Shown in pieces: positions 2,797 through 60,097 of a stretch of 64,000 bases of DNA. Positions within the stretch are counted from its first letter, which is position 1. Each line of letters opens with the position of its first letter. The notes beneath the pieces are model-generated. The model was not told the DNA's origin and made no database searches. It was given only the letters and a program-made list of their open reading frames with translations. Location of the stretch: positions 3,303,855 through 3,367,854 of the forward strand of contig OZ038455.1 in NCBI GenBank assembly GCA_964036195.1, in the 5' to 3' direction. The DNA comes from Sphaerolaimus hirsutus. Lineage: Eukaryota > Nematoda > Chromadorea > Monhysterida > Sphaerolaimidae. A program made the position numbers and the translations under genes.

Positions 2797-5700
2797 TCAA
2801 CCTTTCTTAACATATTCCATAACTTCTTCAACATCTTCCTTACTACCCAAAATGATGGGCGCCCTATCGTGAATAGATTCCGGTTGAACGTCCAAAATTG
2901 GCCCTTTGCCAGTAGTTGCCAAACCGCCCGCTTGTTCTATTATCATAGCCATGGGATTGCATTCGTATAGGAGTCGCAGCTGTGGGGGAAGAGTTACGGT
3001 ATTTACAGTGTTGCCTTGAATAAAACCCCCGGATATAGCGCTCAAAACTCGATTTTATTATAATTTAGGGATCGGGACCACGAAATCCCGAAAAAAAAAT
3101 CGGGATCGGGATCCCGTCTAAACACTTCTAAAAAATTTTTTCTTCAATTCTCCACTTCCGGAAATGGCACCTAACCTTTCCCTTGGGACTGAGACTCGTG
3201 GCGGGGTACAGAAAAACGCCTCCGTTTATCAAAGTTCGGTGGACATCTGCGACCATGCTGCCCACGTATCTCGCTGCGGCGGGCGACTGCGAATTGAAAT
3301 TGAATAAAAATTGTGAATTTTGAATGTTGAGGGGAGAAAGTTGGAGTGTGGGGGTGGGAAGTGATTATCTATGACTCTATAAAAACTGGTTTTCTACCGA
3401 AATTTCGTTTTGAAGTTTTGAAATATCATTTATCACCCTTCAAAGTATTTGAGTTGACCAGAATGAGGTGTTGAAATTTTCAAAAAAATTAGTTTTCAAC
3501 ACATTAGAGTTGATAGGAGTTAAAAAGCACTCATTCCGGTAAAATCAAATGCGTTCAACGCTGATTTATAAATGTTCCAATTTTTTAAATAAATATTCGG
3601 TAGAACCAGGAACGTATCCAGAATTTTGGAGCGGGGCTGTTTGTTTACGGAGGCCGGCGAAATTTCCCCATGGGGGTTTATTATTTCTCCAGCAAAATTT
3701 GAGGGGGGTTAATTCGAGGGGGGGTTATTATTTCGTCATTAATTTTCGTAAGTATCGTAGTATAGTAAGCTTTGCGTACACAAAACAGGTAATAAATGTA
3801 TCCAAACAGGATATATTTGGACATAAAAACGTAGATAGCTACACAAACTAGTCTATGTGTAGCTGCAATGCAAATTAGCAGTAATATACATAATGTACAT
3901 TGCATAAATGACGTATTTATTACGTACATGACGTACATCATTCCGAAGGGGGGGGTTTATTATTTCCCCAGCCCATTTTGAGGGGGGTTAATTCGAGGTA
4001 ATACGGTATGTCATTTAGAATATGGTTTTTGGGAGTTGTTGTATTTTGCGTTTGTATCACATCGATTTGCAAAAACATTTTTCTGGCGCCAATTCCGCAA
4101 GCGGCGAAAGTAAACGACTACTTAAAAGTGGCTATTAACCAGTTTTTGTATATACTTAAACGTCTGGTCGCTATACAGAGAATACTACTGTATTTTGATG
4201 AATAAATGCACGAGCTGATTACGAAGCGAACTCACCCATAGTGAAATGAGAAAAATGCGAAGAGAAAAAAGTTTGCTTTTTATTCTGATGGGATATGGTA
4301 TACTCCGGTTACTTTACACCCTGCACGCGTGGTTCCCGCTGGAAGTGTGCCAACGATGGTTAACGCGTGCGACTTTCATCAAAAGATGACAAAATTTATT
4401 GTTGTTATAATGGTATTCATTAACATATTCACATCGATGAATTTTTGTCATTTTTTTACGGAAATCACATGATTAAATAATCATTGGCACCTTTCCAACA
4501 CGAGACATAAATCAGTGCGAGGGCAGAGTATCATGTACGTCGAGTATACCTATAGAGTGACGTAATAGCGCCAGGGCGCTGGATAGAACGAAACATTCCA
4601 TCATGACGTGATCGTTATATTTAAAATCAATGAGGAAACATGAAATGAATTTGCAGACTGCAATATTAATTTTCCAATATCACAGGGATCCAGGATTTTT
4701 GAGCGGGGGGGGCTGCTTGTTTACGGAGGCCGGCGAGGGGGGGGGGGGGGCTCAGCCCCCCCCCCTAAAATTTTAGCTACATAGTGCCGGAATGGCGCCA
4801 TGGCGCTGGCGCCATTAGTAGGCGCCACGCCATGGCGCGATTGACGTTGGCGCCAGCGCCATGAAACGCTGTATATGTATGTAAATATACATACAAAACA
4901 GCAAAAAGCACAACATTGAGTGTATTTATAGCGATAAGCAGCCACTTGGAGCAAATTTGATGATAACACCTTATGTCTGGTGAAGAATGCGCGCTGGCGC
5001 GCAAAAATTTTCACGCTGACGTTAAAAAAGTCGCATTTTCCGGTCACTTTCTGGTCTCGCCCCGGGAGGGGGGGGGGGGGCTGCAGCCCCCCCCCCCCGC
5101 CCCCCCCCCTGGATACGGCCCTGCAATATCACACAAAACCTACGAATTCAAACCTGCATTAAACGGGGCAGCGCATAAAAAATACCCCCCCAAAAAAAAA
5201 AAAATTAAAAAAACAACGGGCAACCCGACAAAAAACTGTCGGGCAACTGAAATTCCCCCACAAAAAAAATCTAACTTTTCCTTCCTTTGGGTATTTCCGA
5301 TCGTGCACATACTTCTTAATACCCTCGTCCCAATGTTGTTCGTTTCCCTCGTTGCAACTGTAAATTTTGCCCCTTTTTGGCATTTTCATGTGCCTGTGGG
5401 TCAGGATGAATTCGCCCAGGGCCTGCGAGAAAATTTATTTATTATAAAATGATGTGATTTTTGTGTTCGAACATGGCGACACCCAAACCTCCATCAAAAA
5501 TTAGTCACTTAACAGGGCACTTTACAATCAAGTGCGCACTTAACAACCAACAGTAACCACTTAAAAAACGCACCGGGTCCAAAGTGAATCCATTAACCCC
5601 CGATCCAGTAGTGAGCACTACCATAGTCGCGCTACCGTATAACGCGTAACCAGCCGCTACCATATTCCTGCCTGGCTGGAGGACATCTTCTTTTGTGGCC

Positions 5701-7729
5701 TGGGATTTGGGGGATGGGGGTTGTATTTGAGCGGGGGTTCTTATTTGGGGGTTGGCACTTGGGGACATGGGAGTTGCATTTGCTCGGGGCTGTGTTTGGG
5801 GTTTTTGGGGGCTGGTAAATATTTGGGGACATGGGATAACTAGGGAAGTCGACAAATGAGGATAAAGTTGTAAGTGTATTTATGTTTGGAAGTGAAGTAA
5901 AATTCTGATTAAAAATGAGTGTTGCTTATACTTCGTTTACTTGTTGACTTACAAAACTTGACTTGTCACTTACAACTTTTTTGTCAGTTATGAAATTGTA
6001 GAATTGGGGTAAATAAAACAGTCAAAATGGGAATATGCACTCAATAAACATGCCAAACAAAAAACTTTTCAACCCACCGGCCCATCGGATTTTTTCCTCC
6101 ACACCCCAAAAATGGTGCCAATAGAAATGAGTACATCTATATTGCTGGAACCGTCCAAGGGATCAAATGCCACTATGTACTTGCCGCTGTGGCCCATGTC
6201 AACCTGAAATTTTTGGGGGTTCAATAAATTGTGAAAATAGCGTAAGTGCAGGGGTCTTGAATTCTGACCCCCCGGGGGTTGGATAGATAGCAAATCGCTC
6301 CTCCGGCGGGATAAATAGCTGAAAAAATCTTTTTTTTCCGGGGGTCGGGAAACTGTTCACATTTGCATTGGAGTAGAGTGCATGGAGATGTTCACATGCA
6401 CCTAGGGTTATAACACGATGGACATGGCTGTCCTGTTGTTGAAAAAAATATACATTTAGATATTCAAACCATTTATTTCGGTGATGATTTTCAATGTGGA
6501 AAAACATTTTTACAAAAAATCCACATCGTGGTAAAGAAATATCTGTCGATACCTGATGTCAACTTTGGCAATTTACCAATTTTCGTTATCGATAATCGAC
6601 TGTGTGAAATAATCTCAATTCCACACAAACATCATTCCATCCAACCTAACCCATGACCAATCACAAAACTGCTAAACTCCGCCCACCTCAATAACATCCT
6701 TCTCTTCCTCGCTGACCAGAACGCAAGTCGTCAGGCTAGATTTCAACATGTTGATCATGAGTTCGTTGGATAAAACGTCCAGTTTTTTAACTTCTTCACC
6801 CTGGTAAATTTAAAAAAAGAATTGAAAATTGAGTTTTGCCGTTTAGTGTGATGGAAAAATTACCGTGAAATTAATCTTTTTGATTAATCCGATAAATCAA
6901 TTTTCTGTCTTAATTGAGCGGATGGCAGCTTTTACAGCCTTTCAACTATTATATAAATCATACTCTTTTTAAACTTGGTTTTAAAAACTTTTTAGGAAAT
7001 TTTCAAAGTAAATAATTATAAAATGGTAACCACTGAAAAGACTGCCCGATTAAAAAGTATATATCAACACCTCACAAAAATATCCGGCATACACATCTAA
7101 AACGTGTGAGGTGCACAGAACAGACCCCTCTAAACAGCAAACCCGTAAATTACCGGAAAATCTTTACATCTACCGGAATCACATCTACCGGTACGGTAAA
7201 CTCCGCCCACAAACCTGCACATTGGTCTGGCCAGCGATACCGAACAAATGCGCCAATCCCGCCTTGCGCACGGCGGAGGAAATGGCCTTTACCGCGGTAA
7301 GCAGAGATTGCAGCAACGTGGTCAGATCTCCGGTGGCGTGCGGCAGCTGCAAATGTTTTTTTTGTTGATTTTTTGGCTGACAGAAAAACTCCGACCATCT
7401 ATCTATCCCAAAGCAAAATTTGATGCCTACTGTCGCCTGAACACCCTCCCCCCAAACCGACCAGGGGGCACTCCCAGACACTGTAAAATGTCAAATGTCA
7501 TGTCAAAAGTAATGGAAAAGTGTCAAAAGTCGTGGAAAATGCACTGAAAAATGGCAACACGGTTTTTAGCATGCAAGTGCAACGAGTAATTGCCCGCAAA
7601 TAAAACACTAAAAAGATGAAAGATAAAACGATATTCACCCACCTTTCTCTGTTCATTGAGCACATATCTGGTCAACGTGATACAATCAGTTTCGATCCCA
7701 TATCGATTTTTATTATTTTCTTCTGCCAT
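2797..7729 (-). CDS. FBP1: Fructose-1,6-bisphosphatase, 8 exons
   Basis: Cytosolic gluconeogenic enzyme hydrolysing fructose 1,6-bisphosphate to fructose 6-phosphate. Coding exons (minus): 7729-7643, 7346-7215, 6800-6687, 6203-6078, 5699-5574, 5422-5276, 3286-3176, 2979-2797; all junctions are phase 0 with GT-AG borders. The joined 341 codons match the animal family length (about 338). Visible motifs: [11 protein letters not shown] (metal ligands D125 and D128), SEEEK near 103-107, [15 protein letters not shown], and LYECNP (metal-ligand Glu about 287). The AMP-site motif is TGDL where vertebrate enzymes have TGEL, a conservative change. The start is the ATG in AAAATGG at 7729; an upstream in-frame ATG lies outside the homologous region. 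Intron 6 (about 2 kb) holds a complete hAT-like MITE (4683-5123). A minus-strand AATAAA at 2692-2687 is a plausible polyadenylation signal. Confidence 0.96.
3064..3123. repeat. Small CCCGAT-family hAT-like remnant in FBPase intron 7
   Basis: TTAGGGATCGGGACCACG ... GGGATCGGGATCCCGTCTAAAC is a miniature of the TAGGGTTCAAACGGGATCCCG elements at 49945 and 53696. Confidence 0.6.
3607..4008. repeat. Chimeric junction: hAT-like fragment fused to a TACCGTATTACC MITE
   Basis: 3607-3660 is the left end of the CAGGGACGTATCC family (up to ACGGAGGCCGGCGA). From about 3661 the sequence is the interior and right half of the TACCGTATTACCTCGAATTA family, ending CGAGGTAATACGGTA at 4008. The left terminus of the second element and the remainder of the first are missing. 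Lies in FBPase intron 6. Confidence 0.7.
4683..5123. mobile_element. hAT-like MITE, CAGGGACGTATCC family, with 8-bp TSD
   Basis: Ends CAGGGATCCAGG and CTGGATACGGCCCTG, flanked by the perfect 8-bp duplication CAATATCA (4675-4682 and 5124-5131). An 8-bp duplication and CAGGG ends are hAT hallmarks. The interior has GGCGCCA words, a GTATATGTATGTAAATATAC palindrome and a gcgcgcaaaaattt block shared with copies at 42193, 47819 and 62143. No transposase is encoded. Lies in FBPase intron 6. Confidence 0.9.
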
Positions 7730-11889: not shown

Positions 11890-12032
11890 CTGGTGTCAAT
11901 TCCGCAAGTGTTCAAGTGACAAATTCTGATCAGTGGCAATAGTTCTAAGTGTTAAGTGAATTATTTACTGAAAATTATGTTTAACACTTTAAACCTTACT
12001 CATAGCTTGTCTACCTGTGAAATTGACACCTG
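11890..12032. repeat. MITE, CWGGTGYCAATTCCGCAAGTG family
   Basis: Ends CTGGTGTCAATTCCGCAAGT and AAATTGACACCTG. Same family as 19661-20389 and, most importantly, as intron 3 of the lambda-crystallin gene (22183-22504). Confidence 0.65.
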
Positions 12033-14411: not shown

Positions 14412-15960
14412 AAAAGGAGTCTAGGATAGGGGTCTCCAATGGGAGGGGGGTTGGGGGTCGTTACGGATAGGGGTTGGAGACCCCGGATAGGGGTTGGATA
14501 GGGGTTGGAGATGCGGGGGTTAAGTTGGGGGGCGTTATCCCTAACCGAGGTTACAGGCTCCAGCTATACTGCATACCATTTAGCTATACGGTTATCCAAA
14601 TTTAGGTTAGGCAAATTTTTGGCTGCTCAATTACGTGGCCGGGGGAGGGAGTTTCAAGCAAACATTGAAGCAACATTTTGTACATATTGGAGATCGCTCC
14701 AGATATTGGAGGGGTTCAGCAGATAGTAGACAAAATATTTGCATCGGCACAAATGGAAAGCCGGAGCGTTTGCGGGACCAACACATGTACACAAATATCA
14801 TGTCACTTAAAATAGGAACAAAAAACAACAACATGGAAACCGAACCTTTGTAAATCCAAAATGCATGCGAAATGGTTCCTGGCTAATAAAAGTCGTATCT
14901 CCACCATACAAAAATCGTCGGCCGGACGGAAGGGCTGAAAAATTGAAGATTTTGTGAATTTTGGACACGAGCCAAATAAACAAAACAGAAAAGGATTAAA
15001 GACACAGAAAACTCCAAAAAAATGTCAATCAAATCGTACAAACCTTTCAAACAATGCCTGGCGCTCAAAAGCCGCGTGGCCGCAAAGCGAAAAAGTACAG
15101 AATTCATTAGGAGGTGCCTCGTCTCTGGAAACAAAAATGGGGACAGGCTACAAAAATGAGGATGTCAGTTATACGAAAAGAAAGGTTTTCAAATTGATGA
15201 TAAAATTACAATTAATAACTTCAAAACACAGAAATATTCGGTGAATGTAGGTTGTCAAAATAAGTTCATTAAAAACAATTATCATTTTTTCAGAACATGC
15301 GATGAATTACCAAGTTGAAGCAAAATTTTCGCAATGCGTATAATTTCATCCTTTTAAAATGTTTTCTATTTCTAAAAACAAAACGCACGTCTGATGAAAA
15401 CTACATTTTGTCCCTGAAAATCAAGGAAATTTTGTCTAAATTCACATGTCTAAATTCCACTGTTGCCATTGGCAATGACTAGTGGAGAAATTTGGTAACT
15501 AAAATGTAACCAAGTGTTTCCATAGAACTGACATTTTGAGAAGATTTTCTAGAAATTAGATTGGTCCATTTTATCAAGTAAATTATCTAAGTGATGGCAA
15601 ATTTTACCAACTCAACAGTTTACTTGTCAGTTACTTCACTTAACATATTTCAGTACTTTTGTCACTTTCCACTAGTGAAATTGCTACGTTGTCTCATTTT
15701 ACTAAAACATTGTAGATTTGTAGAAAATTTGTACACAAACAGACTCTATTTTAACTAGTTTCACACAAATTAGAAAATATTTAACACTATTCATATTTAT
15801 GTCACAATTTATGTATTCAATAGAAATTTGAGCTGTTAAATTTCTGGAATAACAAAAGGTTTCTTTCTGTCAACAACATTCACATTTTTCAGCCTAAAAC
15901 AAAATCAGTGCCTTATTCCTATCTCTTCCAATTTCACTCACTGCAACCTCCTTTAAAAAA
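14412..15960. other. Intergenic; CAGGGGTCTCC-family fragments then no gene
   Basis: 14425-14540 holds broken GGGGTCTCCAATGGG fragments. The remainder, up to the TRAP-beta start, shows only short frames (one at 14954-15244, unrecognised, lysine-rich). Confidence 0.5.
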
Positions 15961-17029
15961 ATGAAGAAATGCAACTACTTCTGCTCAATTTTAACAATAA
16001 CTTTTTTGGCACTCATCCAATGTGGGATGTGTGCAAAACAGAGAAAAAGTAAGGATGAGAAAATACTAAAAAAAGACTTTGGAATACCACCAAATTATGG
16101 AGCAGAACAGGAACAGCAGCAAAAATGGCTGGATTTGGTGGTGAAATTTTTTTATTTTAATTTTTTGTCTATAAACACAACTTTTTCCTTCAAAACACAG
16201 GAACTTAGAATGCCAGAAGTAAAAATGAATGAGACAACAGGAGAAAACACTGAAAATAATGTACCAAAGTGCAGAATCTTGGTACACAAAGAAATCTTGT
16301 CAACAGTTTTGGTTGCTGGGAGGGAGATTGCTGTCAGATATGATTTGTTTAATTTGGCCCCTGTGGTGAGATTTTAAATTTGAAAAAATTGAAAAACAAT
16401 AGATTAAATGGATTAAAAATACTCACAGGCATGTGTTAACATTCATCTTAATGATGCCAACAGTTTTCCTATATCTGATTTTGAAATAGTATTTGGGAAT
16501 GTACAGGTAAATTATATTATCAGTTTATCTATTTTTATACATATTTTACTTTAAATTAACTGAGAAACACAGGCAAAATGGAATCACCTAAAATCACAGT
16601 CAAACATAACACATTCAGTTATTTTGAAAATAAAAGCACATAAAACAGAAGGGGAAATTGCAAATGGCCCAGCTATGGTTACCTACATGACTGAAGGAAT
16701 AAATTTGGATGAAAATGGAGAAATACATGAGGGGTTCAGCAAAAGGACAGTTTACAGTAATCTACCTGAAATGGGTGAGTGTTGGTTGAAAATAAAAATA
16801 AACTTTTGTACAATCCCCCACCCACACAGCACCCCTGCTTCCACCATCAAAATTCAAGCGTTTTTATATACCCAATCCAATAGCCTGGGTAACATTTGGC
16901 TGCATGGCAGCTATCAGTACACTGGTGCCAATGTTTATGGCTTGGAAAAGTGCCAAAAAATACGAAAATGTGAAAAATAAATTCGGTGCAGGTTTTAGGG
17001 GACTTAAGGTGAAGGGTAAAAGGGAGTGA
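15961..17029 (+). CDS. SSR2: Translocon-associated protein subunit beta (TRAP-beta), 5 exons
   Basis: ER membrane protein of the TRAP complex, which assists translocation at Sec61. Exons: 15961-16140, 16201-16365, 16429-16506, 16573-16774, 16830-17029; 275 codons. Residues 1-25 form a signal peptide (hydrophobic SILTITFLALIQCG). Family landmarks follow in order: LVAGREIAVRYDLFNLAPV, DANSFPISDFEIVFGN, WNHLKSQSNITHSVIL (the sequon NITH aligns with the family's glycosylated NVSH), then FKRFYIPNPIAWVTFG and a single membrane segment with a basic cytosolic tail. The protein is about 90 residues longer than the vertebrate form (183 aa), mostly a charged region of about 60 residues after the signal peptide and a short C-terminal extension. 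Intron 1 is exactly 60 nt, in frame and without a stop, so its retention would add 20 residues. A candidate ATTAAA lies at 17072-17077. Confidence 0.92.
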
Positions 17030-19660: not shown

Positions 19661-20389
19661 CCAGGTGCCGGTTCCGCAAGTGGACAAGTTAAGAGTTAAA
19701 AGTTATCAGTTGAGTAAAATGACTAATGGCGAGTTGAGAGAAAAGTTAAAGTTAAAGAGAAAAGTTAAAATTTAAGAGTTGAGTTAAAGGTTGAGTTAAA
19801 TGTTAAGAGTTGAGTTAAAGGTTAAAAGTTGAGTTAAGAGTTAAGAGTTGAGAGTTAAGAGACAAGTGGAAAATGATGGTAAAAAAATATAAAATAAAAA
19901 AATGTAAAATTGGTATCGATACGGCTGTTCGCTGGCATGGTGCCAATGTTGTATGCATGTCATTTGAAAATGATGTATCCAAAAAAAATTATCGCTAAAA
20001 AAAGAAAAAATCGCGGAACATTGTTTCAAATCTAACGCTCTCAAGATCCAAATTCATTTTTTTAATTTTTTAATTATTTTTTATTACATTTTCCCCCATT
20101 TGTCTTTTAAATCAACTTTTAACTCACCTTTTAACCTTTAACTCAACTCTTAACTCAACTCTTAACTCAACTTTTAACCTTTAACTCAACTCTTAACATT
20201 TAACTCAACCTTTAACTCAACTCTTATCATTTGACTCAACTTTTAACTCAACTCTTAAATTTTAACTTTTCTCTTAAACTTAAACTTTTCTCTTAAACTT
20301 TAACTTTACTCTTAACTCGCCATTTGTCATTTTACTAAACTCTTAACTGTTAACTCTTAACTTGTCCACTTGCGGAACTGGCCCCAGAT
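19661..20389. repeat. Large MITE, CAGGTGCCGGTTCCGCAAGTG ends / TTAACTC words
   Basis: Left end CAGGTGCCGGTTCCGCAAGT, right end the inverse CACTTGCGGAACTGGCCCCAG. The left flank is an array of GAGTTAAAGG / AAGAGTTGAG, the right flank its inverse CTCAACTCTTAACTC, around a centre of about 220 bp. Same terminal family as the intron at 22186-22504. Confidence 0.78.
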
Positions 20390-21275: not shown

Positions 21276-24200
21276 ATGGAAAACAAAGGAAAAGTTGCCA
21301 TTATTGGATGGTAAATTTCTCTCAACAGAAAAATTAAGGTGGGTATATTTTTTCCAGAAAGATTAACTACCTATATTTTTACAGCGGACAAATAGGACAC
21401 AATTTCGCTTTGATGTTCGCCGCCGCTGGACATCAAGTTTCCATTTGTGATCTCGAAAAAGAAAAACTTGAAAAATCTTTGGAATGGATAGAGGAAACAT
21501 TGAAGCAGTTAGAGGTAAATTTGTGTTGCTTTGAATAAAAAAATTTTAAGAAAAGATTTGTCAGATTTCTTGTGACAATTGAGCAATAGAATTGACAAGT
21601 GACAAGAAAAATGGTCAGGGGGCAGTCCCAAGCCCTGTAAAGTGTAAAGTAAAGTGCCAAATGTAAAGTCAAATGCAAAGTAAACTGTCAATCAAAACAA
21701 AAAAGAAAAGATTTTATTACTGAACTTTGCATGACAATTGACAGTTTACTTTGCATTTGACTTTACATTTGACACTTTACTTTACCTTTACAGGGCTTGG
21801 GATTGCCACCAGTTGTCAGTAACGATGGGAAACCCTCTAGTACAACGTGTTTAAATTTTTTAAACGTTTTTTTCTGTGTCTTTTTCTAAAACAACTTTTC
21901 TGATTTCGATTTTTTTTCGACAAGTTTTCGAATTTTCCAATCTTTTTGATTACTTTTTAAATTTTCGAAAACTTCAGGGAGCAATTTCTCTCGACCACTT
22001 TACAGGAGGATGGCTTATCATTGTCAAAAGAGCCAATAAATATTCAAATGAGCAGAATGAAATTGGACACTAGTTTGGAAAAGTGTCTCAATGGTGCAGT
22101 TTATATACAAGAGGCAATACCGGAAAATTTGGCTGCAAAACGGGAGATTTTTGCAAAAATTGACGGAATTGTGAAAAGTGACCAGGTGGCAATTCTGCAA
22201 GTGGATAAGTGAAGATTAAAGTGGTAAGTGACAAGTAAGGGGGAATTCACAATGATTTTGCTTGATGGCAATGACAGCACATGAAAAAGTTCCAATGTCG
22301 AGTGAAAAGTTCCATATTTGTGTGAAAATTTAGGTGAAGTATTGACGAAATTTTTGTGAACGACCTCAAAGTTGTTAGTGGTAGGTGAGGTGACTAGTTT
22401 TTACAATTTCAATTTTCCACTTACATTTGCAAGTTCACACTTATCACCATACCTTTCACTTAAAACTTTTCTTGTCACTTATCCACTTGTTGGATTAGCT
22501 CCAGGTGATATTGGCATCATCAACCTCTGCAATTTTGCCAAGTGTACTTTTTGAGAAGATGGAAAGAAAGTAAGTTTAACTTTGTGCTGGTGAAAACTAG
22601 TGATGGAAAAGCGCCAGGAAAAGTGGCGCCATGGCGCCATTCAAAAATTGGTGCCGGGCACCAAAGGGCGCCAGAGAAACTTAAGGGTGCCATTTAAGGA
22701 CGCCATTCCATCACTAGTGACAACCCACTCACAGACCATATAAAATGCCCTATAAATTGTCATGCAAAGTGTCTTACATCATGTAAAATGCACTGTAAAA
22801 TACCAAATATCATGCAGTGTCATAAGTCATGTAAAATGTGATGAAGGATGTCAAACATCCAGTAAAGAAATTGACCCATTACAGGGCATTTTACATGACT
22901 TTTGACACTTTGCACGACTTTTCAATTCTTACAAGGCATTTTACAGGGTCTGGGAGTGGCCCCTGATCATACTGTGTTGGGGTTTTGATTGAACTTTTGA
23001 TGAATAAAGTCACACACAAAGAAAATCAGAGAAAAAATATCAGATCGCAATGTTTGGTGGTGCACCCTGTAAATCCGCCAGTTTACTGCCGCGAAATTGA
23101 ACTGGTGCCTTCAAAATGGACAAATGAAAATATTATGCAGGGTGCAGCGGAAATTGTCAGGAATATTGGGGTGGTTAGTATTTCGGTTGTTTATTTTATT
23201 TTATTGTAAACACATTTCAAATCCCTTTTTACTCTTTTGCCCGATAAGCTTTTTCGGGCAGCCCGATTTTTTTTAAATGAAATTTTTCTCTGTAAATTTG
23301 TAAAACTTTTTTTCAAACATATTGAATATAATTATATAATTATAATATAATACATATAATGCCATTTTATAGCGCCATTACATTCACTCACACATAGGCA
23401 CATTTCCCCCTGCAGCAACCAGTAATCTTCCACAAGGAAATCTTAGGCTTCGGAATAAACCGACTGCAATACGCGATTATGGTAGAAGCATGGCGTCTTA
23501 CGGTAGTTGAAAAAGTGATTACGGTAGCAGATTTGGAGAAATTGTTTACTAATGGATTGGGCAATAGATACGCATTTTGTGGGCCGCTGGGCGCTCAGCA
23601 TATTAATATTGATGGGGGTGAGGATTTTTTTGTTTGAGTGACTGATTTATTGCTATGCAAACTTTGGACCAGTTAGATGTGAAAATAATACTTTGTGTAA
23701 AATTCACATGTAACTAATTGGACCAATCCACTCAATTTGTTGTTAATTTGTTTAGTATAGCTCGCTAAGTTTTAAGTGAAATTAAACTGCATTGCATTTG
23801 TTTGGCTCAGTGCCAAGTTTGCATTGGGCATATTTTACATTGAAATCTTTCATACCCCATATGCATATTGTAAATAGGTATGAAAAACCTTACAGACAGG
23901 GTTGGCAAAATCTCAGGAAAAAATAAAAATAAAATGGAATATTGAAGAATAAAATAAATAAAAAACACAATTTTTATACAATTTTATTAAAAAGAATTTT
24001 ACAAAAACCAATTCTGGTCATGATCTAACAAAAATAAAAATGAAATAAAAATAACAATAAAATGGAAAATTGAAGAATAAAATAAAAATAAAATACAATT
24101 TTGTACAATTTTACTACAATTATAGAAAAAATAATTTTACTTAAACCAACCCTGCTTACAAATTTATCCTCATAATTCGTCCATCACTATATGATTATCT

Positions 24201-27200
24201 TTATACAAAATTTAATCACATCAGTTATCTCAAAATATGGTACTATTCTGTGCAAGGCAAGGCATGCCAATACACTAGCGTGCTGAATAGTTGGGACTGT
24301 GCGTGCTGTACGATAAACATTGCCAAAATTTCAAAACATTGAATGTGCAAACACAATGTTTGGATACCATTGGTGGGTACTGTGGGCTGTTGGCTACATG
24401 TGCCTGGGATGACCAGCCCTCAAGTTTGTATGTGCATATGTTCTTAGTGCAGTAACTAAATTCACTCAGTTTCTTTGTGTTTCATAATAGTTGGGACTTT
24501 TCTTGTTTTGGCCAGTAGCTGCCTAGAATCATATTTTTTAGACTGTATCATACACCTACATTCATTTTTAAACAAAATTTTCAATATGGCAACTGCCTGT
24601 CTGTGTTGCTGAGCTCTGTGTGCAGCATAGAACATTCTAAGCATGAACAGCAAATGGTTTTGCATGTGGAAATGTGGCATGTATTTATTTCAGCCACAGT
24701 TTTGCATCCATTGCCAGCCACTCAGAAATGGAGGTAGGTATACTAGTCTGTGTGGCTATTTGGTGTGTAAATTTGAGATATTCTCTTGGCTCTATTGATG
24801 AGAAAACTTGGCTCAACTCTCGATATGTAATGTGCAAGTATTTTGTAAGGGAAAGACAATGGAAGTTTGAAGTGCTATAACTTTTGATTGGAAAGATATA
24901 TTGAAATAATTTTTGTTGCATATTAATTCTAGCTGTCTAAAGTATATGATAGCGTGCTCAAAAATTCGTCAAGTTGGAAACCATATCAGTTAAATCAGCA
25001 TAAGGCATTTAGACATCACTGATAAGTTTGAAGTGCTATAACTTTTGATTGGAGAGAGATATTTAACTCATTTTTGTTTTATGTTAATTCTCAATGTCCA
25101 AAGTATATGAGAGCATGTTCAAAAAATTTAATTTTCGTGTTTAAAAACGGGGTCAAATCGGCATACGAAGACAGACCTCGCTAATCGGACCACAAAAATG
25201 GCATCTTCAGGTTTTGCCGATTTTTTTAAGTGTTGAACGAGCCAAATCGGCCCAGAAATGGGCGAGTTATCAAGCTTCAAATTCAATCATGCAGATTGGC
25301 CATTTTTGAATTTTTATCAAACACCTTTTCATAGACCCCCCTTATCTTGGGCATGGGTGATTATTTGAGCAAACGAAAATTTTCAGTCATAGCTCCAACC
25401 TCAAACCCCAACATATTCAAACAGAATCAAAATTTGGCAAGGTTCAATGGAGAAGGGAGCAATAAAAGTTTGATGGACCAGCAGCCCCCCATTTCTCCAT
25501 GCAGTGAAAAGTCCCAACTTTTCTGCACGGTAGTGTATAATTCAATTTATGTATCAACACAAATTCATAATATTTACACAGGTATGAAGGGTCACAATAA
25601 GACCTATGGTGAAAGTTTGCACACTGTTTGCAGGGATTTTGGACAACCCCCTGATTTTATGGATAAGGAAAATATTGAATTTATGAAACAACAGCTGGAA
25701 CAATTGGTGATTTCATATTAAAACAGCAAATCATAAAATAAAAAAAACACAGTAAACAATGTTTTCCAGTTTCCAGAAGAGACAACAGAAGAATTCAGAG
25801 TGTACAAAATGAAGGCACTATGTGCTCTGGCAAAACTGAAAAAGGAATGTAAATTTGATGAATTTAATTCCAAGAAAACTGAATGTGGTTATTCATATGA
25901 AGACACTGATGAAAAAACTGTGCCAGAAATTTGTGTGGAATCAAAGGGAAAAGTGGCAATTATTGGGAGGTTAAAATTTAATAGGAAAAAATTATAACTG
26001 CACTCGAACTTAATCCCAAATAATTTATTCGCTTGAATAAGACCCCAGTGAGGAAAAATCCCACTGTTGGGATTCGTGATGTTTGTTCTATGCAACTACT
26101 TCCCATTTGATTCAATATACCTGTGTGATAGCAGTCACTGGGAGAACACTATGAAGTACTAACCAACCAAAACCACTCAACCCTCAAATCCAACACCACC
26201 AACACATATAAATTGGGTATATGACGTGAAAATGGGCTCAATGTAAAATTTGTACCCTCCGTGAGATACTACAACAAGCTTCATGCATTTCTTGGAAAAA
26301 TCCTGAAAAAAATTATGTTTTCCAATATCAATTTTACGAAATCTTAAAAATTGTGACAACTCGGACTTGGCTCGATGAAGTATTCAAGCAATATTTTTTA
26401 TTGGCAAAATATTTTCTTAGGTACCGTATTTCTTCTAATAGAACGGCACCTCCAATAGATGGCAGGTAAAAAAGTTAACGAAAAAAATACCTAGAACTCT
26501 TCTATTCGAAAAAAATACGGTAAATAATTTTTCAGCGGCATGATAGGCCACAGCTACGCGCTGATGTTTGCAGCGGCAGGGTACGATGTTTGTTTGCACG
26601 ATATTTCAGAGGAAATGCTGCAAATAGCATTGTTCAGAGTTAAGGAGGCACTCGTTCTTCTCAAGGTACCGTATTTCCTCGAAATACCCCCCCGGGGGGT
26701 GATTGTTTCATAGTGGTCCCGAGAGGGGGGGGGTTAAACGAGGGGGGGGGGTATTTCGAGGGGGGGGGGTTATTATTTCACAAGGAAATTTTTGAAAACC
26801 AAGTACGAAATTGTCGTCTGAAACGTACGCAGACGTCGAAAAATGCAACAAAAACCGCCATTTATAAGGTTCTGTAGACTAATATTAGTACGTAGATGGT
26901 ATAAACACTGTTCTAAAATGATTCCGACATTGTTTTAACGTGTGTTCTGCACTACGCAGAACACAAACTGCAGTATTTGTCATGTACGTTCTCTTTACAC
27001 TCAATTTGGGGGGGGGGTATTTCGAGGGGGGGGGTGATTGTTTCATAGTGGTCTCGAGAGGGGGGGGGGGTCAAACGAGGGGGGGGGGGTATTTCAAGGG
27101 GGGGGTGATTCGAGGAAATACGGTAGTATCATTTTTACTTACTAGACTTAGGTACTGATGCCTAGGACAGATACAGCTTTGGACCAGTTAGATATGAATA

Positions 27201-30200
27201 CTTATGTTTCAATGCGAATTTTTTATGCCGATTCCATTCGTTGTTCATCATGTTATTATATTATTGTATTCACTCCGGTCTTTTTAAGGAAAATTAGGGC
27301 ATTTTATTTGGCTTAGTGTCAAGTGCTTTGTTGCACTTTTTCATAACAAACAATTGTAAAGATAATAATAGTTCTTTTCATTATACACACAAATTTCTGA
27401 AGAGTTCCGAAATGTCTGAAACTGATAATCAATCAGCTTTGAGCACCTTTGAATTTCCCAACCGGAATAAAGAATCCGTCAACTACTATTGACGGTGATG
27501 AAAAATATTCATTCTGGTGAACTCAAATGTGTTTCAAACGGATTTATTAGTTTCGGAAAAATTGGAAATTTACAATTTGTGGTCATGTAAAAATTCAAAA
27601 ATAATATTTTATAATTGCAGAAACAAGGGCTGGCCAGGTCAAATGAGAAAATTGACACACAAATGACAAGAATAACAACATCATTGGATCTTGAATCAGC
27701 GATGGATGGTGCCAACTTTGTTATGGTAACTTTTGGTCTACATTTTAGTTTTTACTTAAATTTATAAATCAGTTTTGAAAACATTTGAGTTTGCCAGAAT
27801 GAGGTTTCTTTTAACTACTGTTGATGGAGATTGTAAATAACTTATCCTGGTAAACTCAAGTTCGTTCAAAGTTGATTTATGAGCTCTCCCATTTTGTTGT
27901 TGAAATTTCGGTTAAAAATTATTGTGCAGCTTTGTGAATTTCACATAAATACGATTTGGTTTAACATATTCAAAGTGTGTAACATTAGTGAATATTTCTG
28001 AAAATAAAGACAAAAATTTCCAGGAATGTGTACCGGAGAGAATTGAACTAAAAAGGATCATCTTTGAGAAAATCGACAAACTTGTCAAAAATGAAAATGT
28101 GGTAGTAGTGAGCAGCACATCAAACATATGCCCATCAAAGATTATGAATGGACTAAAGCACAAGTGAGTAAAAAAATTTATCTGGACCTGGGGATGGGGT
28201 CACTCCCAGACTGTGTAAAGGAAAAGTCAAATGTCACGCAGTGGCAAAAGTCAAGTAAAATGCCCTGTAAAATGCCCGGTTTTCTTTTCTTTTTAACAGG
28301 ATATTTGACATTTTGCATGACATCTGACATTTTACATGGTCTGACTGGCACCTCAATGCTCAATGTGTCGTTGATTTACTAAGTGAATCCAGGTGCCACT
28401 CCCAGTTCCTGTAAAATGTCATGCAAAATGTCAAGTCATCTAAAATGTCAAATATTTCATGTCAAATTCATCAAGTACCATTCCACATTTTGTACTAACT
28501 CAATGTGGCCCTAAATGCTAACCATGCTGGTTTACCTACAACTGAAATTTCGGAAACTCCTATATCTAGCTTAAACAGATTTGAGTTTACCGGAATGAGG
28601 AGTCTGTCAACTACTGTAAGCAATTTTCACTTCGCAGATCCCAGTATTTAGTGTGCCACCCCGTAAGTCCGCCGATTTACATGCCCACTGTAGAAATTGT
28701 GCCTTCTCAATGGACTTTACAAAGTGCCGTGGACAAAACGAGACAAATTGTGGAGGAAATTGGACAGGTTTGAGGGTTTTTTTTTAGAATTTGCAATTGC
28801 TTTGTTTGATTATTGGAAAAAGTAAACTTTTCACATCAGTAGCAGATGATTCTAAATAAAAATTGAAACGAAAAATTCCCGGAAGTTCTTTATCAGATTT
28901 TGATTACTGAGGAATCTTCGAAGAAAGAGGGGAAATGTTCTTAATGAAAAATGAAAATCGGACAGAATGTTACCATAATTCGATTAATAATTGACGTTGC
29001 AAATTCTGTGCTAGACTCTCCTCAAGTGCGTCCACTGTTTTGAGAGGAACATGTAAAAAAATTCCCAATTTATTCAGATGGGATACGGTAGATGACAGTG
29101 ATAAATGTTGATAATCATAAAAATATGAAATCAATTTGAACTGCCAAACCAGCCCTCATAACACCCCAGGTGCCAGCCGTTATCAATAAAGAAATACCAG
29201 GTTTTGTTCACAACAGATTACAGTACGCGATAATGGCAGAAGCTTGGCGCCTTGCCAAAAATGGCATACTTTCTGCTGCCGACGCAGATAGATTGGTTGA
29301 AGATGGCAAGTTTTATTAATTTTTTAGACAATGGCTCTAAACACACTAATTGGCAAGGACGCCTGATGTCAACTGGTTCCGATCCCAATTCAAAGCTTGC
29401 TGCCGAGTAGCATCAAGCATTATTGTATTGGCTGCTCAGCAAACTTTGAATTCGGATTTGAACCAGTTGACATTTGATGAACTTGTCAACTGGTGTGCGC
29501 AGGGCCAATGTGGGTAGAAATATGTGCGCAAAGCGGGTGGCGATTGGGGTGTCAAATTTCCGTTTCCGTTTTCCGCAGGAAAATTTTTTACCTTTCTGTT
29601 TTCCGTTTTCCGGCAGCTGAAATTTTTTTACCTTTCCGTTTTCCGTTTTCCAGCAGCTGAAATTTTTTTACCTTTCCGTTTTCCGGCAGCTGAAAATTTT
29701 TTACCTTTCCATTTCCGTTTTTCCGTTTTCTGGCTGAAAATTTTTTACCTTTCCATTTTCCGTAAAAAAATTTTTTGACACCCTAGTGGCGATGGCGCTA
29801 TTTTGTCATCGCGCCATTGGCGTTTGGCGCTGGGGGTTAGAAACAATCAAGTTATTTTGGCATTTGGCACCAAGGTCATGCCGTTTTTTACATCACTAGC
29901 CATGACGCTTTAACGCAACCATAATAATCACACCCTTTTCCGATTATGGTAGGCAGGGGTTTCCTTCAAAGGGGGGCTGCCCCCCCCCTTAAATCCAGCT
30001 ATCTATCTATCCCAGAGACAAATTTTTTGCCTATCTATCTAGGGTTCAAACAATATATTGTATCGAATATCGAATATAGGACATCGACCATTTTTTAATA
30101 TCGAATATCGATATCGAAAATTTTGAAAAAATATCGAATATCGAATATCGATATCGAAAATTTTGAAAAAATATCGAATATCGATATCGAATATCGACCA

Positions 30201-33184
30201 TTTTTTCGATATATCGAACCTATATTGTGTCCCTAAAAAAGTTATCATTTTCATTTTGAGATATTTATGATTGATCTGATGTGCTTGATCTGATCTGAGA
30301 ATTGTATTAGATGAGTAAAAGTACTGTACTTATAATGTCATTTTTGTTGGAGTGCTAAATTTGAAGCCAGAAAATGCTGATATTCTATTTTTTGCAACAT
30401 GCCCTTAAGCAATCAGGTTATCAGTATGAACTGTAATATCTACAAATTGTTATTTGTCTGATACACATTGATTTATCATGTTTTGTTCTACATGTTCTAC
30501 TTTTGAGTGATGTAAACCTTGTTAAAATCACTTGTACCATTCACATTTAACTAAAGAGATGATTAACTGTGTGTGCAACCACATGAAAATACAATATGTC
30601 ACTTGAAATATGCCTTGCTATACCAAAAGCAAATCGCAATATCGAATATCGAAAATATCGAAATATCGAATATCGAATATCGACCATTTTTTAATATCGA
30701 ATATCGAATATCAATATCGAGGTTCCATATCGTATCGATATCGAATATCGAGTTTCAGAAAAAAATATCGAATATCGAATATCGATATCGAAAATTCATA
30801 TCGTTTGATCCCTATATCTATCCCCAAAATAGGCCAGCTATCTACCTATCTGGAGCGATTCTTGAGTAAATTTGCCCCAATTTTCGCTTAAAATCGTTAA
30901 TTTTCATACATTTTATAGTTTTGCACCTTCAAAATCGCGGCTTTCGCCTATACACATGTTTATATACCTATTTTAACTACTTTTAACCTGTTTGTAGCGA
31001 TTTTTTTCCCGTTTCTGCCTTCTATGCACTGAAAAGCCTATATATTTTGCCCCCGCAAACCCCCCCCCCCAGGAAATTTTTCAGCTATCTATCCCTCCGG
31101 ACGAGCGATTTGCTATCTATCCAGCCCCCCGCGAGGGCCAAAATCTTGGAGACCCCTGGTGATACGGAAGGTATCCTACGTAAGCACAAAATATGCTTTT
31201 GGACAACCTGTATTGTAAAGTGCACACAAATAAATACAACCATTTTCAGGTCTGGGCATGCGCTGGGCATTTATAGGCCCGTGGGAAAATGCCATGCACA
31301 ACGCGTATACCGGTTTACCCATTTATTGCCACAAATTTGGGGCGGCAATGAAAAAAATAGCTGAAACGCAAATTGAGGTGCCAAATGTTTTGGATGAAAA
31401 TGATTTGGACAAAATTCACGCAGAGCTGGAGAAAAGGGTAAGTATATTAAAATTATTTGGCGGACAATTTGTACCGTATTTACTCAAAAAATCCCCCACT
31501 GATAGAAGAAAGATATAATACTACACATAATCTCTTTTAAAGACCCACTTGTATAATTCCCTTCCATTGAATGGTACTCCCTTCAAAAAATCAGTTGGAA
31601 GAAAAATCCTCCAGGGGAATTTTCGAATAAATACTATAGGTACTTGAATAACCCATGCTTGTGCACGAATGGACCATTTCCCACATTTCACATATGCCCA
31701 TGAAAATCGATATAGGCATATAGAATATATGCACAAACCAGTTGACAAGGACGCAATGTGTCAACTGGTTTCCAATTCAAAGGCTACTCATGTGTTAAAT
31801 AATATTTCAAATGAAACTGTAATCTTGAAATAAATAGTTCGGCATATGGATTTTAGAAGGCGGGCATGAAGTAAATGTGGATGTTATACAATAATGAGTA
31901 GCGATACTTGTTAGCAAGCTTTCAGTTCGGATGGGAACCAGTTGACATCTAGGCGGTACAGTACATTTAGTGACGATGCGACCATTTTTGTTAAGTGTCA
32001 TATCTCAATGGAAAAGTTCCGTATTTTCGTGAAAAGGCAGTGAACTGTAGATACTATATAGGAATATACATGCATGCAAAGTTTCAGCTGATTTCTTCTT
32101 GTCGTTTGTAAGTTATAAACTTTTTTTTAAAAATTAGATGTCGCAAATTTGTTGCGGGTTGCGACAACAAATTTTTGTTGTTGAGCCTATAACATACGAA
32201 CGACAAGAAGAAATCATCTGAAACTTTGCATGCATGTATATTCCTATAGTATCTATAGTTCACTACCTTTTCACGAAAATATGGAACTTTTCCATTGAGG
32301 TGACACCTTTAAAAAAAGTCGCATCGTCACTAAATTTACTGTAAACACCGCCCTAGGGCCAGATTTAATACTCCCTACAGATTTGTAGGGTAGGGCGTAC
32401 GGGCGTAGGGCCCGATAGATTTTTTTAAATTCAGCCGCGTCGACGCACATGCACCGAGAGCAAGGCGGTTCGTAAAATACACGAAAATATCCCTTAAGGT
32501 CGCCGATATTGCAATATGACGTATATCGCTTCGATTTTGGTCCGGAAATCACGATTTCGTCATTTCTTGGCCGTCTGCCAATTCGTTTTTTATTTTATTT
32601 TGTCGGGCAGGTTACTCGCATAAGTCGCGCTTTTGTACGCTCGTGCATGGATTTCTTTCTTGTCGCTGCCCTCATGGTTTCGGTTGCAGACAGTGAACAC
32701 TAAAAAAGTGACCAATTGACTATACAAAAGCGCGACCTATGCGAGTAACCCGCCCGACAAAATAAAATAAAAAACGAATTGGCAGACGGCCAAGAAATGA
32801 CGAAATCGTGATTTCCGGGCCAAAATCGACGTGGTATACGTCATATTGCAATATCGGCAACCTTAAGGGATGGTTTCGTATATTTTACGAACCGCCTTGC
32901 TCTCGGTGCATGTGCGTCGATGCGGCTGAACTTTAAAAAATATGTCGGGCGTACGCCCTACCCTACAAATCTGTAGGGAGTATTAAATCTGGCCCCTAGT
33001 GTCCTTGTGAACTAGTTTGAGTAGTGCCATACTTTGCTTACTCACTTAGTTTCACAATTTTTTCCCAAATTTCCAGTGGCCACTCTCAAAAATAGACGAG
33101 ATCAGAGAATGGCGTTCAGAAACACTGGCGAAATTGGCGAAATTAAAATTGGAATTGAAGAAGGAACATCCGTTGACAAAATAA
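21276..33184 (+). CDS. Tandem-fused lambda-crystallin / L-gulonate 3-dehydrogenase-like protein, 15 exons
   Basis: NAD-dependent 3-hydroxyacyl-CoA-dehydrogenase-family enzyme, related to vertebrate CRYL1 (319 aa). Exons: 21276-21310, 21385-21514, 22006-22185, 22505-22569, 23044-23173, 23416-23617, 25582-25706, 25770-25969, 26536-26665, 27621-27725, 28024-28163, 28638-28767, 29170-29305, 31250-31437, 33077-33184; 2004 nt, 667 aa. Two full units are joined by a linker of about 27 residues (322-348). Unit 1: Rossmann KVAIIGCGQIG, ASSTS, HPVNPP (His144), NRLQYAI, GLGNRYAF. Unit 2: KVAIIGSGMIG, VSSTS, HPVSPP (His488), NRLQYAI, LGMRWAF. Both keep the expected cofactor and catalytic residues, so both may be active. 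Exon 8 contains no stop and splices in frame into unit 2. Intron 3 coincides with a MITE; intron 13 is GC-AG. ATTAAA at 33278-33283 is a candidate poly(A) signal. The exact substrate is inferred from family only. Confidence 0.94.
21615..21810. repeat. MITE, CCTGTAAAGTG family, in lambda-crystallin intron 2
   Basis: Left GGGGCAGTCCCAAGCCCTGT, right inverse ACAGGGCTTGGGATTGCCACC, with TGTAAAGT/ACTTTACA words. Confidence 0.75.
22183..22504. mobile_element. Introner-like MITE forming lambda-crystallin intron 3
   Basis: Left end CAGGTGGCAATTCTGCAAGT then GGATAAGTGA; right end, read inverted, CTGGAGCTAATCCAACAAGT then GGATAAGTGAC. These match the terminal family seen at 11890 and 19661. The intron (22186-22504) starts at the GT inside the left end and finishes at the AG of the right end. 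The border words ccaggtgg and ccaggtga agree at 7 of 8, so they could also be an 8-bp target duplication carrying AG/GT. The homologous position in the second protein unit has no intron. Confidence 0.75.
22598..22716. mobile_element. hAT-like MITE, TAGTGATGG / GGCGCCA-word family
   Basis: Ends TAGTGATGGAAAAGCGCCA and CGCCATTCCATCACTA; flanks gtgaaaac/gtgacaac agree at 7 of 8. Lies in lambda-crystallin intron 4. Confidence 0.85.
22720..22970. repeat. MITE, CCTGTAAAATG family, in intron 4
   Basis: Inverted ends CCCACTCACAGACCATATAAAA... and ...TTTTACAGGGTCTGGGAGTGG, with arrays of ATGTAAAATG/CATTTTACAT. Confidence 0.7.
23618..25581 (+). other. Lambda-crystallin intron 6 (about 2 kb) contents
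   Basis: Holds a GGCTCAGTGCCAAG repeat (23660-23830), AAATAAAAATAAAATG-rich stretches (23930-24140) and a direct repeat of about 100 bp: 24863-24965 and 25024-25125 both start AAGTTTGAAGTGCTATAACT, 161 bp apart. The open frame upstream of exon 7 is not homologous to the family. Confidence 0.6.
26422..26522. repeat. Repeat, CCGTATTTCTTCTAATAG family, in intron 8
   Basis: TACCGTATTTCTTCTAATAG ... CTTCTATTCGAAAAAAATACGGTA. It ends 13 bp before the exon 9 acceptor border. Confidence 0.7.
26667..27125. repeat. TA-flanked MITE at the 5' splice site of intron 9
   Basis: TACCGTATTTCCTCGAAATA ... TTCGAGGAAATACGGTA. The host exon ends ...CTTCTCAAG at 26665 and the intron begins with host G (26666) plus the MITE's own T, so the GT donor spans the insertion border. 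Confidence 0.85.
27178..27350. repeat. GGCTTAGTGTCAAG repeat, in intron 9
   Basis: Same word order as 2435-2640 and 23660-23830 (ggaccagttagatatgaa ... gattccattcg ... gcttagtgtcaagtg). Confidence 0.5.
27765..27890. repeat. MITE, ATAAATCAG..GAGTTTACCAGAATGAGG family, in intron 10
   Basis: Inverted ATAAATCAGTTTTGAAAAC.. and ..AAAGTTGATTTATGAG around GAATGAGG/ACTACTGTTGA. Better copies at 39180-39372, 49525-49760, 57816-57995 and 58046-58252; fragments near 3390-3560, 18020-18160 and 28525-28625. Confidence 0.65.
28195..28480. repeat. Two adjacent MITE copies, CCTGTAAAATG family, in intron 11
   Basis: 28195-28352 has both inverted ends (TCACTCCCAGACTGTGTAAA and TTTACATGGTCTGACTGGCACC); 28390-28480 begins GGTGCCACTCCCAGTTCCTG and is partial. 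Confidence 0.65.
29343..29512. repeat. MITE, GTCAACTGGTTCC family, in intron 13
   Basis: GATGTCAACTGGTTCCGATC at the left; inverted GGATTTGAACCAGTTGACAT and GTCAACTGGTGTGCGC at the right. Confidence 0.7.
29545..29785. mobile_element. hAT-like MITE, CGGAAAA-word family, 8-bp TSD, in intron 13
   Basis: TGGGGTGTCAAATTTCCG ... TTTTTTGACACCCTA with the perfect 8-bp duplication GTGGCGAT (29537-29544 and 29786-29793). Interior is TTTCCGTTTTCCG words, the inverse of those in 13388-13787. Confidence 0.9.
29954..31158. mobile_element. hAT-like MITE, CAGGGGTCTCC family, interrupted by a second element
   Basis: Ends CAGGGGTTTCCTTCAAAGG and ATCTTGGAGACCCCTG. Interrupted at 30040-30814 by an ATATCGA-word element. 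Flanks atggtagg/gtgatacg agree only at 5 of 8, so the outer insertion is older. Lies in lambda-crystallin intron 13. Confidence 0.82.
30040..30814. mobile_element. hAT-like MITE, TAGGGTTCAAAC ends / ATATCGA words, nested, 8-bp TSD
   Basis: TAGGGTTCAAACAATATATTG ... CATATCGTTTGATCCCTA with the perfect 8-bp duplication TATCTATC (30032-30039 and 30815-30822). Both flanks are ATCGAATATCGA arrays; the 350-bp centre is non-repetitive and AT-rich. Confidence 0.9.
31951..32352. repeat. Near-perfect long inverted repeat (about 400 bp), in intron 14
   Basis: Arms of about 165 nt, starting GGCGGTACAGTACATTTAGT and ending with its inverse TAAATTTACTGTAAACACCGCC, with a short loop near 32125-32175. No other copy in the window. 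As RNA it would fold into one long hairpin. Confidence 0.85.
32355..32996. mobile_element. PIF/Harbinger-like MITE, GGGCCAGATTTAAT family, 3-bp TSD
   Basis: Ends GGGCCAGATTTAATACTCCC and the inverse ...AAATCTGGCCC, flanked by CTA on both sides. GGGCC ends with a 3-bp duplication fit PIF/Harbinger. Second copy 45044-45660, flanked by CTG. The two arms (about 300 nt each) are near-perfect inverses. Confidence 0.78.
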
Positions 33185-39942: not shown

Positions 39943-40090
39943 ACACGCTAGTTGACATCGACACCAAATGTCAACTGGTGCCGATCCCAATTCAAAGACC
40001 GCGTTTGAACGCCGTTCGTCCACTCGTCAGCAAGCTTTGAATCGGGATCGGCACCAGATGACATTTGGTGTCGATGTCAACTATGTGGGC
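39943..40090. repeat. MITE, GTTGACATCGACACCAAATG family
   Basis: GTTGACATCGACACCAAATG ... inverse CATTTGGTGTCGATGTCAAC, flanked by CACACACGCTA/TATGTGGG. Near-perfect palindrome, downstream of the ACP gene. Confidence 0.82.
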
Positions 40091-44820: not shown

Positions 44821-45041
44821 TTTTTAGTACTATATGCTCTTGTTTACCCATTTTGAGCTATTTTACACCTACTTTTAGCGATTTTTCTCCCTTTTCTTCA
44901 TTCTACACCCTGAAATAGCCTATATATCGAACCACCACACCCCCCCAACCCCCAAAAATGTTTTCCCAGCTATCTATCTATCCCGAAGGCCGCCCAGCTA
45001 TCTATCCAACCACCCGGAGGGTCAAAATTCAAGATACCCCT
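44821..45041. mobile_element. Right half of a CAGGGGTCTCC-family MITE
   Basis: From the tttttagtactatatgct core to the terminal AAGATACCCCTG; left half absent. Confidence 0.7.
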
Positions 45042-45043
45042 GG

Positions 45044-45660
45044 GGCCAGATTTAATTCTCCCTACAGATTTGTAGGGTAGGGCGTACGCCCGATAGAAGT
45101 TCAGCCGCATCGACGCACATGCACCAAGAGCAAGGCGGTTTGTAAAATATACGAAACTATCCCTTTAGGTCGCCGATATTGCAATATGACGTATATCACT
45201 TCTATTATGGCACGGAAATCACTATTTCGTCATTTCTTGGCTGGCTGCCAATTCGCTTTTTAATTTATTTTGTCGGGCGGGTTACTCGCATAAGTCGCGC
45301 ATTTGTACGCTCATGCATGCATTTCTTTGTTGTCGCTGCCCTCATGGTTTCGGTTGCAGACAGTGAACACTAAAAAAGTGACCACCTGACTACACAAAAG
45401 CGCGACTTATGCGAGTAACCCGCCCGACAAAATAAAAAAAAAACGAATTGGCTGACGGCCAAGAAATGATGAAATCATGATTTCCTTGCCAAAATCGAAG
45501 TGATATACGTCATATTCCAATATCGGCGGCCTTAAGGGATGGATTCGTATATTTTACAAACCGCCTTGCTCTCGGTGCATGTGCGTGGATGCGGCTGAAC
45601 TTAAAAAAATTTATCGGGCGTATGCCCTACCCTACAAATCTGTAGGGAGAATTCAATCTG
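45044..45660. mobile_element. PIF/Harbinger-like MITE, GGGCCAGATTTAAT family, 3-bp TSD
   Basis: GGGCCAGATTTAATTCTCCC ... GGGAGAATTCAATCTGGCCC, with CTG on both sides. It lies exactly against the CCCCTG terminus of the preceding element. Confidence 0.78.
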
Positions 45661-59197: not shown

Positions 59198-60097
59198 GTA
59201 AGTCCTTGCGGTCGAATTGAGTTTGACTCCAAGTGCTAGTTTTTACTACTTTAATACATATATTTTAAATGTTTTAAAAAAGCTCAGCCTTTGTCCATAT
59301 GATTATTACATTTGGTAGAATGTCAATTTTATTCTGTGCAAAATGAAGGAAAGTTCTTTTCTATTGAGACGTCGACATCTCTTTAAATAGTTCATTTGAA
59401 ATTTCCATTTCTTTCAAGCCTTATTTCTTATTTATTTCAAAGTTCTCATGGAGTACCTATTACCAGAGAGTACCCAAAGGTACTCAGAGAGTACCACACA
59501 TTGTGCATAATGTCGGTATGCAAATATGTATCTATTTGTTATACATACTTAAATATATAGAAATTGTTCTGAAAGTATTGGGACATTCTTTTGCTGGCAT
59601 TGAAATGCATGGAAGTGACAAAAATTGGGCATATGCATCCGTTTTAGTTTTATCTTGTATGGCCAATTTTTTATCTCAGTAAATGGTAGTTGACGGACAC
59701 CTCGTTCCGATAAACTGAAAAGCATTAATTGGGATTTTGAAATTTCGGTATCCGGATAGAGGTTTCGGGATCGGGATCGGAATCGCAAAATCCCGGAATT
59801 TTTCGGGATCCGGGATTCGGATCCCGTTTGAACCCTACTGGGGCCAATACTGACAATACTTCATTTGTAAATTCAAAAAACTTGTCAGTTATCAAATGTT
59901 GATAGTCAGTTGACAGACCACTTTAAACTTTACTTAGCACTAACCACTTATTGTCACTTTTCCACTTGAGAAATTTCTCCCTGACCGACTATTTCCGCAA
60001 CAAACAAAGTGCAATACATTTGTTTGCATGTATATATTTAGCGTTTGGCGCATGCTTTCACAGGTAGCTATTTGCTATAGAAATTGCATGTACCTAT
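59198..60097. other. Intergenic; CCCGAT and CAAGTGG-type fragments
   Basis: 59745-59838 is a small CCCGAT-family remnant ending CCCGTTTGAACCCTA; 59839-59983 has CTGGGGCCAATACTGACAAT and inverted TTTCTCCCTG ends of the CAAGTGG type. No gene. Confidence 0.5.

Follow-up and report, generated by a model that had tools for sequence, protein, structure and literature searches.

The window analysed here is a stretch of 64,000 nucleotides from the nematode Sphaerolaimus hirsutus (contig OZ038455.1). It contains a plus-strand tandem of two lambda-crystallin-like units of the 3-hydroxyacyl-CoA dehydrogenase family, fused in one reading frame. The homology-based model of this gene spans 21276-29307, with a last exon probably near 31200, and comprises 13 exons, 12 introns and 578 stop-free codons. 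Its 13th exon was given an arbitrary end, and the final part of unit 2 was left out. Unit 1 is colinear over its length with the lambda-crystallin chains 3ado and 3f3s in a PDB alignment, and one of its introns measures 1,964 nt. A Tegillarca protein, P0002 (562 aa), also looks like a lambda-crystallin tandem. A fructose-1,6-bisphosphatase (FBPase) gene of 8 exons, nearly full-length, was identified by tblastn on the minus strand at 2803-7693. A translocon-associated protein beta-like gene was observed at 15898-16980 (tblastn 4.9e-9); when its ORFs were compared with Pfam, one scored 23.3 bits against a cut-off of 22.4, and the next 20.0.

The proteins encoded in the window are likely of nematode origin, judging from sequence comparison. 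A midpoint-rooted FBPase tree of 35 rows combined the window sequence with rows chosen among 120 matches listed of 3,004, 26 of them from named relatives and 8 environmental. The window sequence fell into one group (99/98) with each of the 11 named nematodes and each of the 8 environmental rows; within that group it stood beside ten named nematodes, with Romanomermis outside, at a support (92/92) below the starred level. For the lambda-crystallin-like protein, the best match was the nematode Plectus, and two more nematodes were present in the top four; the corresponding tree of 48 rows does not place the window sequence.

Intron 3 of the tandem gene (22186-22504, plus strand, 319 nt, GT-AG) separates exon 3 (21982-22185, with an uncertain acceptor, GGGAG|CAA) from exon 4 (22505-22569) of unit 1. 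Its borders coincide, base for base, with those of a MITE and its short target duplication. The left border reads CAG|GTGGCAATTC at 22183, and the right border reads GCTCCAG|GTG at 22504/22505. The NuwaI-like body of the element, delimited by a leave-one-out end model and TIR comparison, occupies 22186-22501 on the plus strand and opens with GTGGCA, the predicted 5' splice site. The first copy of the duplicated CAG (22183-22185) is the last codon of exon 3, and the second (22502-22504) supplies the AG of the 3' splice site. The sequence-only reading had equated both intron borders with MITE ends; the coincidence is indeed exact, but the acceptor AG derives from the duplicated target and not from the element end.

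The exact inverted repeat described earlier at the two ends was recovered as the 15-mer CAAGTGGATAAGTGA, with its left arm at 22198-22212 (plus) and its right arm at 22475-22489 (minus). With up to 3 mismatches allowed, this 15-mer has 10 matches in the window, compared with 1.76 expected. The arms of the element are 79% identical over 43 nt. Its start matches that of a related element at 19662 at 82% over 39 nt, the longest terminal match within the element set. Local searches of the window returned no close full-length copy of the intron 3 element.

To score the borders, an end model was assembled from the six other elements described below (12 ends), with the intron 3 element excluded. The donor border ranked 5th among the 63,982 positions of the plus strand, and each of 5 shuffles gave 0 hits; on both strands, 6 other positions scored at least as high, all of them ends used in the model. 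The acceptor border is much weaker in the same model: scores at least as good are reached at 86 positions on the plus strand and 98 on the minus strand, with 56-77 per shuffle, and the right end of the element, GAGCTAATCC, matches the family poorly. The predicted fold of the element RNA reaches -91.1 kcal/mol, compared with -71.6 +/- 4.7 for 100 shuffles (z -4.15), and is more stable than all 100. Since the two ends are paired near each other in this fold, it may aid splice-site pairing or hide internal donors.

Joining CAG (22185)|GT...AG (22504)|GTG yields ...KSDQ|VILASSTS..., which is open and colinear with lambda-crystallin. The loop at this place was measured in 78 homologues, of which 14 did not fit the pattern used. 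Among the 64 parsed, it has 7 residues in 57, 8 in three (corals, by their names), 11 in one, and 3 in three others where the pattern had caught a later anchor. When unit 1 is spliced at the MITE borders, both units of the window have an 8-residue loop, so that the loop length in homologues supports precise removal of intron 3. The equivalent position in unit 2 lies within an uninterrupted exon (28024-28163, plus strand; gene model and unit alignment), and the local coding length is the same in both units, as the sequence-only reading had noted. Read from the sequence, the next in-frame donor, at 22201, would lengthen the product by five residues.

The splice sites themselves bear on whether the element is removed cleanly. 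Scores were computed leave-one-out within the lambda-crystallin-like gene, using its 11 other introns. The border donor of intron 3 scored 4.0 (others 1.6 to 8.0) and its acceptor -0.3 (others -0.8 to 10.9), while two internal plus-strand donors, GTAAGT at 22224-22229 and GTAAGG at 22235, scored 10.4 and 6.6. An in-frame TGA at 22210-22212 precedes both. These two stronger donors, although they lie past the stop codon, are a genuine caveat to border splicing, and together with the weak acceptor they would suit a MITE sitting in coding sequence that is not cleanly spliced, so that unit 1 is disrupted or an internal donor leads to an early-stop transcript. This outcome appears unlikely to us, given that the modelled exons of unit 1 are open and conserved and that splicing at the borders would give a loop of a length known in homologues. 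Moreover, weaker donors (1.6, 2.9 and 3.4) are found at other introns of the gene, as is one weaker acceptor (-0.8, at intron 2, itself an uncertain acceptor).

Six related elements, to which no strand is assigned, were identified in the window, including the ends previously seen at 11890 and 19662 (earlier placed at 19661). They are located at 11890-12032 (duplication CTG/CTG), 19662-20387 (CAG/CAG), 21616-21812 (CAG/CAG, wholly within intron 2), 32353-32998 (CTA/CTA), 45040-45667 (CTG/CTG) and 59838-59983 (CTG/CTG). The ends of 19662 and of 21616 match at 18 of 20 positions, and 19662 has inverted arms of about 200 nt at 83%; 59838 is diverged, with a TIR of 7/20. The elements at 32353 and 45040 are two copies, about 90% identical, of a single element; their TIRs are near-perfect, and their 3-bp duplications differ. 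Counting intron 3, the triplets flanking the two ends are equal in direct orientation at all seven elements and inverted at none. Five of the seven had been picked by a scan in which direct repeats of CAG or CTG were a condition. Element 32353 was found through its similarity to 45040, and 59838 through one end, its other end being placed by eye. The duplications are CAG at three elements (19662, 21616 and 22183), CTG at three (11890, 45040 and 59838) and CTA at one (32353). The alternative that CAG belongs to the inverted repeat itself was rejected: a TIR that included it would show CAG at one end and CTG at the other, a pattern present at 0 of 7 elements.

The length of the duplication was compared across the same set. 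The exact direct repeats measure 3 bp at 21616 and 59838, 4 bp at 19662, 6 bp at 11890 and 32353, and 7 bp at 22183 and 45040, and 3 bp is the sole repeat length common to all seven. Thus, the target duplication is best read from these sequences as 3 bp, with CAG at intron 3; the exact repeat at intron 3 itself is 7 bp, like that of 45040, and the 3-bp length therefore rests on the elements with shorter repeats. The longer partial matches fit targets that resemble element ends: at intron 3, the element begins with GTGG and the target goes on with GTGA, and C is both the last base of the element and the base ahead of the target.

The sequence-only reading had favoured a duplication of about 8 bp (CCAGGTGR) carrying both splice sites, on the basis of the border words CCAGGTGG and CCAGGTGA. 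These words do match at 7 of 8 letters, and the best 8-letter match is equally 7 of 8 at 11890, 32353 and 45040. At the remaining three elements it falls to 5, 5 and 4 of 8, and an exact 8-bp repeat, as in hAT-like elements, occurs at none of the seven. Elements 19662 and 21616, with their well-kept ends, show repeats of just 4 and 3 bp, and 59838 one of 3 bp. We consider the longer duplication very improbable.

The flanks were also examined by scans with less selection on the repeats. An initial pair scan without a repeat condition gave 1,036 pairs, which was too loose, and it was then tightened with a strict end word that itself came from the known elements. This less biased scan gave 16 pairs. 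Five had direct 3-bp repeats (CTG twice, CAG twice, CTA once), all already in the set, and the other 11 did not, 4 of them having inverted flanks; the intron 3 element and 59838 are missed at this setting. With a 6-of-7 end word, 65 pairs were obtained. Eleven had inverted flanks and 7 had direct ones, AAA and TTT being added here to the 5 already known. Applied without any flank condition, the end model gave matches preceded most often by CTG (10) and CAG (10), then by AAA (7), where up to 10 of the 20 CTG/CAG matches are model-building ends that were themselves chosen by their CWG flanks.

Beyond the duplication, the target half-sites (n=14) show G beside the duplication in 8 of 14 (p 0.0015) and T next to it in 9 of 14 (p 0.012), in a small sample that includes intron 3 and two closely related elements, at positions chosen after looking. 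The sequences suggest a target preference of roughly ACCWGGT, with the proto-splice site AG|GT inside. The target of the zebrafish Harbinger3 transposon, AAAACACCWGGTCTTTT, likewise has a CWG duplication within a palindrome close to ACCWGGT; this string had no match in our literature search, and zebrafish Harbinger3 is not known to form introns. At the element ends (n=14), the terminal triplets are GGG (7), GTG (5), GAG (1) and GGA (1), with GTG and GAG at the intron 3 element. Three of the seven elements have GT at one border and AG at the other when read in one orientation (11890 on the minus strand, 19662 and 22183 on the plus strand), and one of them is seen as an intron. The family may be predisposed to form introns, because AG|GT lies within its preferred target, approximately ACCWGGT, and GT is the start of some of its termini.

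The two units of the tandem gene are 45% identical and are sisters in the 48-row tree (94/96), on long branches. Four intron positions are common to both, after unit 1 residues 11.67, 55, 144.67 and 188. The MITE intron is present in unit 1 alone, and an intron at residue 442 in unit 2 alone. The intron specific to unit 2 (27726-28023) has no element ends at its borders. As the intron is the element, a gain in unit 1 after the tandem duplication is the simplest reading of these sequences, loss from unit 2 being possible. With intron content differing in both directions, one could also envisage an older intron at this codon, lost from unit 2, whose interior was later replaced or overwritten by the MITE. 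Host sequence would then be expected between the splice sites and the element, and instead both borders coincide exactly with it, making such a history highly improbable.

We consider it probable that intron 3 is a MITE-born intron, whose splice sites came from the insertion of a NuwaI-like MITE into the coding sequence of unit 1. That the intron is made of the MITE and that the insertion supplied both splice sites agrees with what had been proposed from the sequence. A non-autonomous NuwaI-like (PIF/Harbinger-related) MITE would have inserted into GTGAC-CAG-GTGATA of unit 1, and duplication of the 3 bp CAG would have given CAG|GTGGC...GCTC CAG|GTG. The first bases of the element, GTGGCA, would then serve as the 5' splice site, the donor GT belonging to the element, and the duplicated target CAG would serve as the 3' splice site, the acceptor AG being its second copy. 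Splicing would take out the element together with one copy of the target and restore the original codons. We infer that splicing occurs, that the units were already duplicated when the element inserted, and that the transposase, missing here, is of the NuwaI type. Autonomous NuwaI copies have a DDE transposase and a Myb/SANT protein; in the window, neither an autonomous copy nor a Myb/SANT gene came to notice, and none of the 10 ORFs run against Pfam is a transposase.

The duplications and termini resemble those of the NuwaI group of PHIS transposons, described from 16 animal genomes with CWG duplications, mostly GGG termini and TIRs of 12-61 bp (PMC4482050). The window elements share with this group the 3-bp CWG duplications (CAG at three, CTG at three) and an animal host, with repeats reaching 6-7 bp at 4 of the 7 elements; of their 14 ends, 7 begin with GGG and 5 with GTG. 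They differ in the single CTA duplication and in the arms of 19662, which exceed the reported 12-61 bp (PMC4482050). Published NuwaI hosts include bony fish, crustacean, mollusc, anthozoan and beetle; the host section of that report lists no nematode, and introns are not mentioned in its accessible text (PMC4482050).

Introners have been reported in 175 of 3,325 genomes, with two animal groups, copepods among them (PMC9860276); the word "nematode" is absent from the main text of that survey. In the alga Chrysochromulina, an introner brings its own 5' splice site and uses a co-opted 3' site (PMC9860276). Introners and intron 3 are alike in being derived from an element, in taking one splice site each from the element and the duplication, and in keeping the coding length (PMC9860276). 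By sequence and homology, the borders of intron 3 are those of the element and its duplication, and the mRNA length would be kept. The known introners differ in forming families at many genes (PMC9860276), whereas a single intron is observed here. Intron 3 is probably a variant of the introner kind. A literature search, with most subscription papers outside its reach, found no paper connecting the creation of introns with CWG-type Harbinger elements or with the target of these elements.

Related observations exist for the wider superfamily. PIF/Harbinger sequence was found among recently gained fungal introns (PMC8476143), which likewise links the superfamily to gained introns; but that case concerns fungi, and exact borders, CWG duplications and a proto-splice target are not described in the accessible part of the report. 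It has been proposed that transposons landing at AGGT could be intronized, the weight of target preference being left open (PMC3443670), and Harbinger is known as an origin of domesticated genes (PMC3257199). A transposon group with a proto-splice site in its preferred target makes the bearing of the target on intron creation directly testable, and in animals, for which introners are reported in two groups only (PMC9860276). A bolder and rather doubtful reading is that CWG-type Harbinger (NuwaI) transposons constitute a built-in intron factory of animals, in which coding insertions become precise introns far above chance, here and elsewhere. The palindromic target would hold CAG|GT, the duplicated CAG would provide the acceptor AG in one orientation, and GT termini would provide the donor.

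Of the 19 modelled introns, 12 in the lambda-crystallin-like gene and 7 in the FBPase gene, intron 3 is the one bounded by an element. An exact element end at either or both borders was found at 0 of the 11 other lambda-crystallin-like introns and at 0 of the 7 FBPase introns. With one element-bounded intron in 19 and a best terminal match of 82% over 39 nt, the description of the family as an active or recent intron generator, made in the sequence-only reading, is not upheld. Equal triplets at both intron ends occur at 4 of the 19 modelled introns, intron 3 included, and two of the others are also CAG, so that such triplets alone are not telling.

Several other candidates were evaluated and set aside. 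An inverted-repeat element of 77 bp at 39978-40054 has ends that resemble the TIR word; its flanks continue the inverted repeat (caaatgtcaactg / caaatgtcatctg), and it probably belongs to another family. Eleven stretches in viral contigs that match one 16-base end were taken for chance, without a computed expectation. In the FBPase gene, the intron at 2980-3175 begins 5 nt ahead of a relic of an element end of the same type (GTGCCATTTCCGGAAGTGG, score 13.9); its far end scores -14.7, and in place of a second element-bounded intron we read it as an intron with a relic inside.
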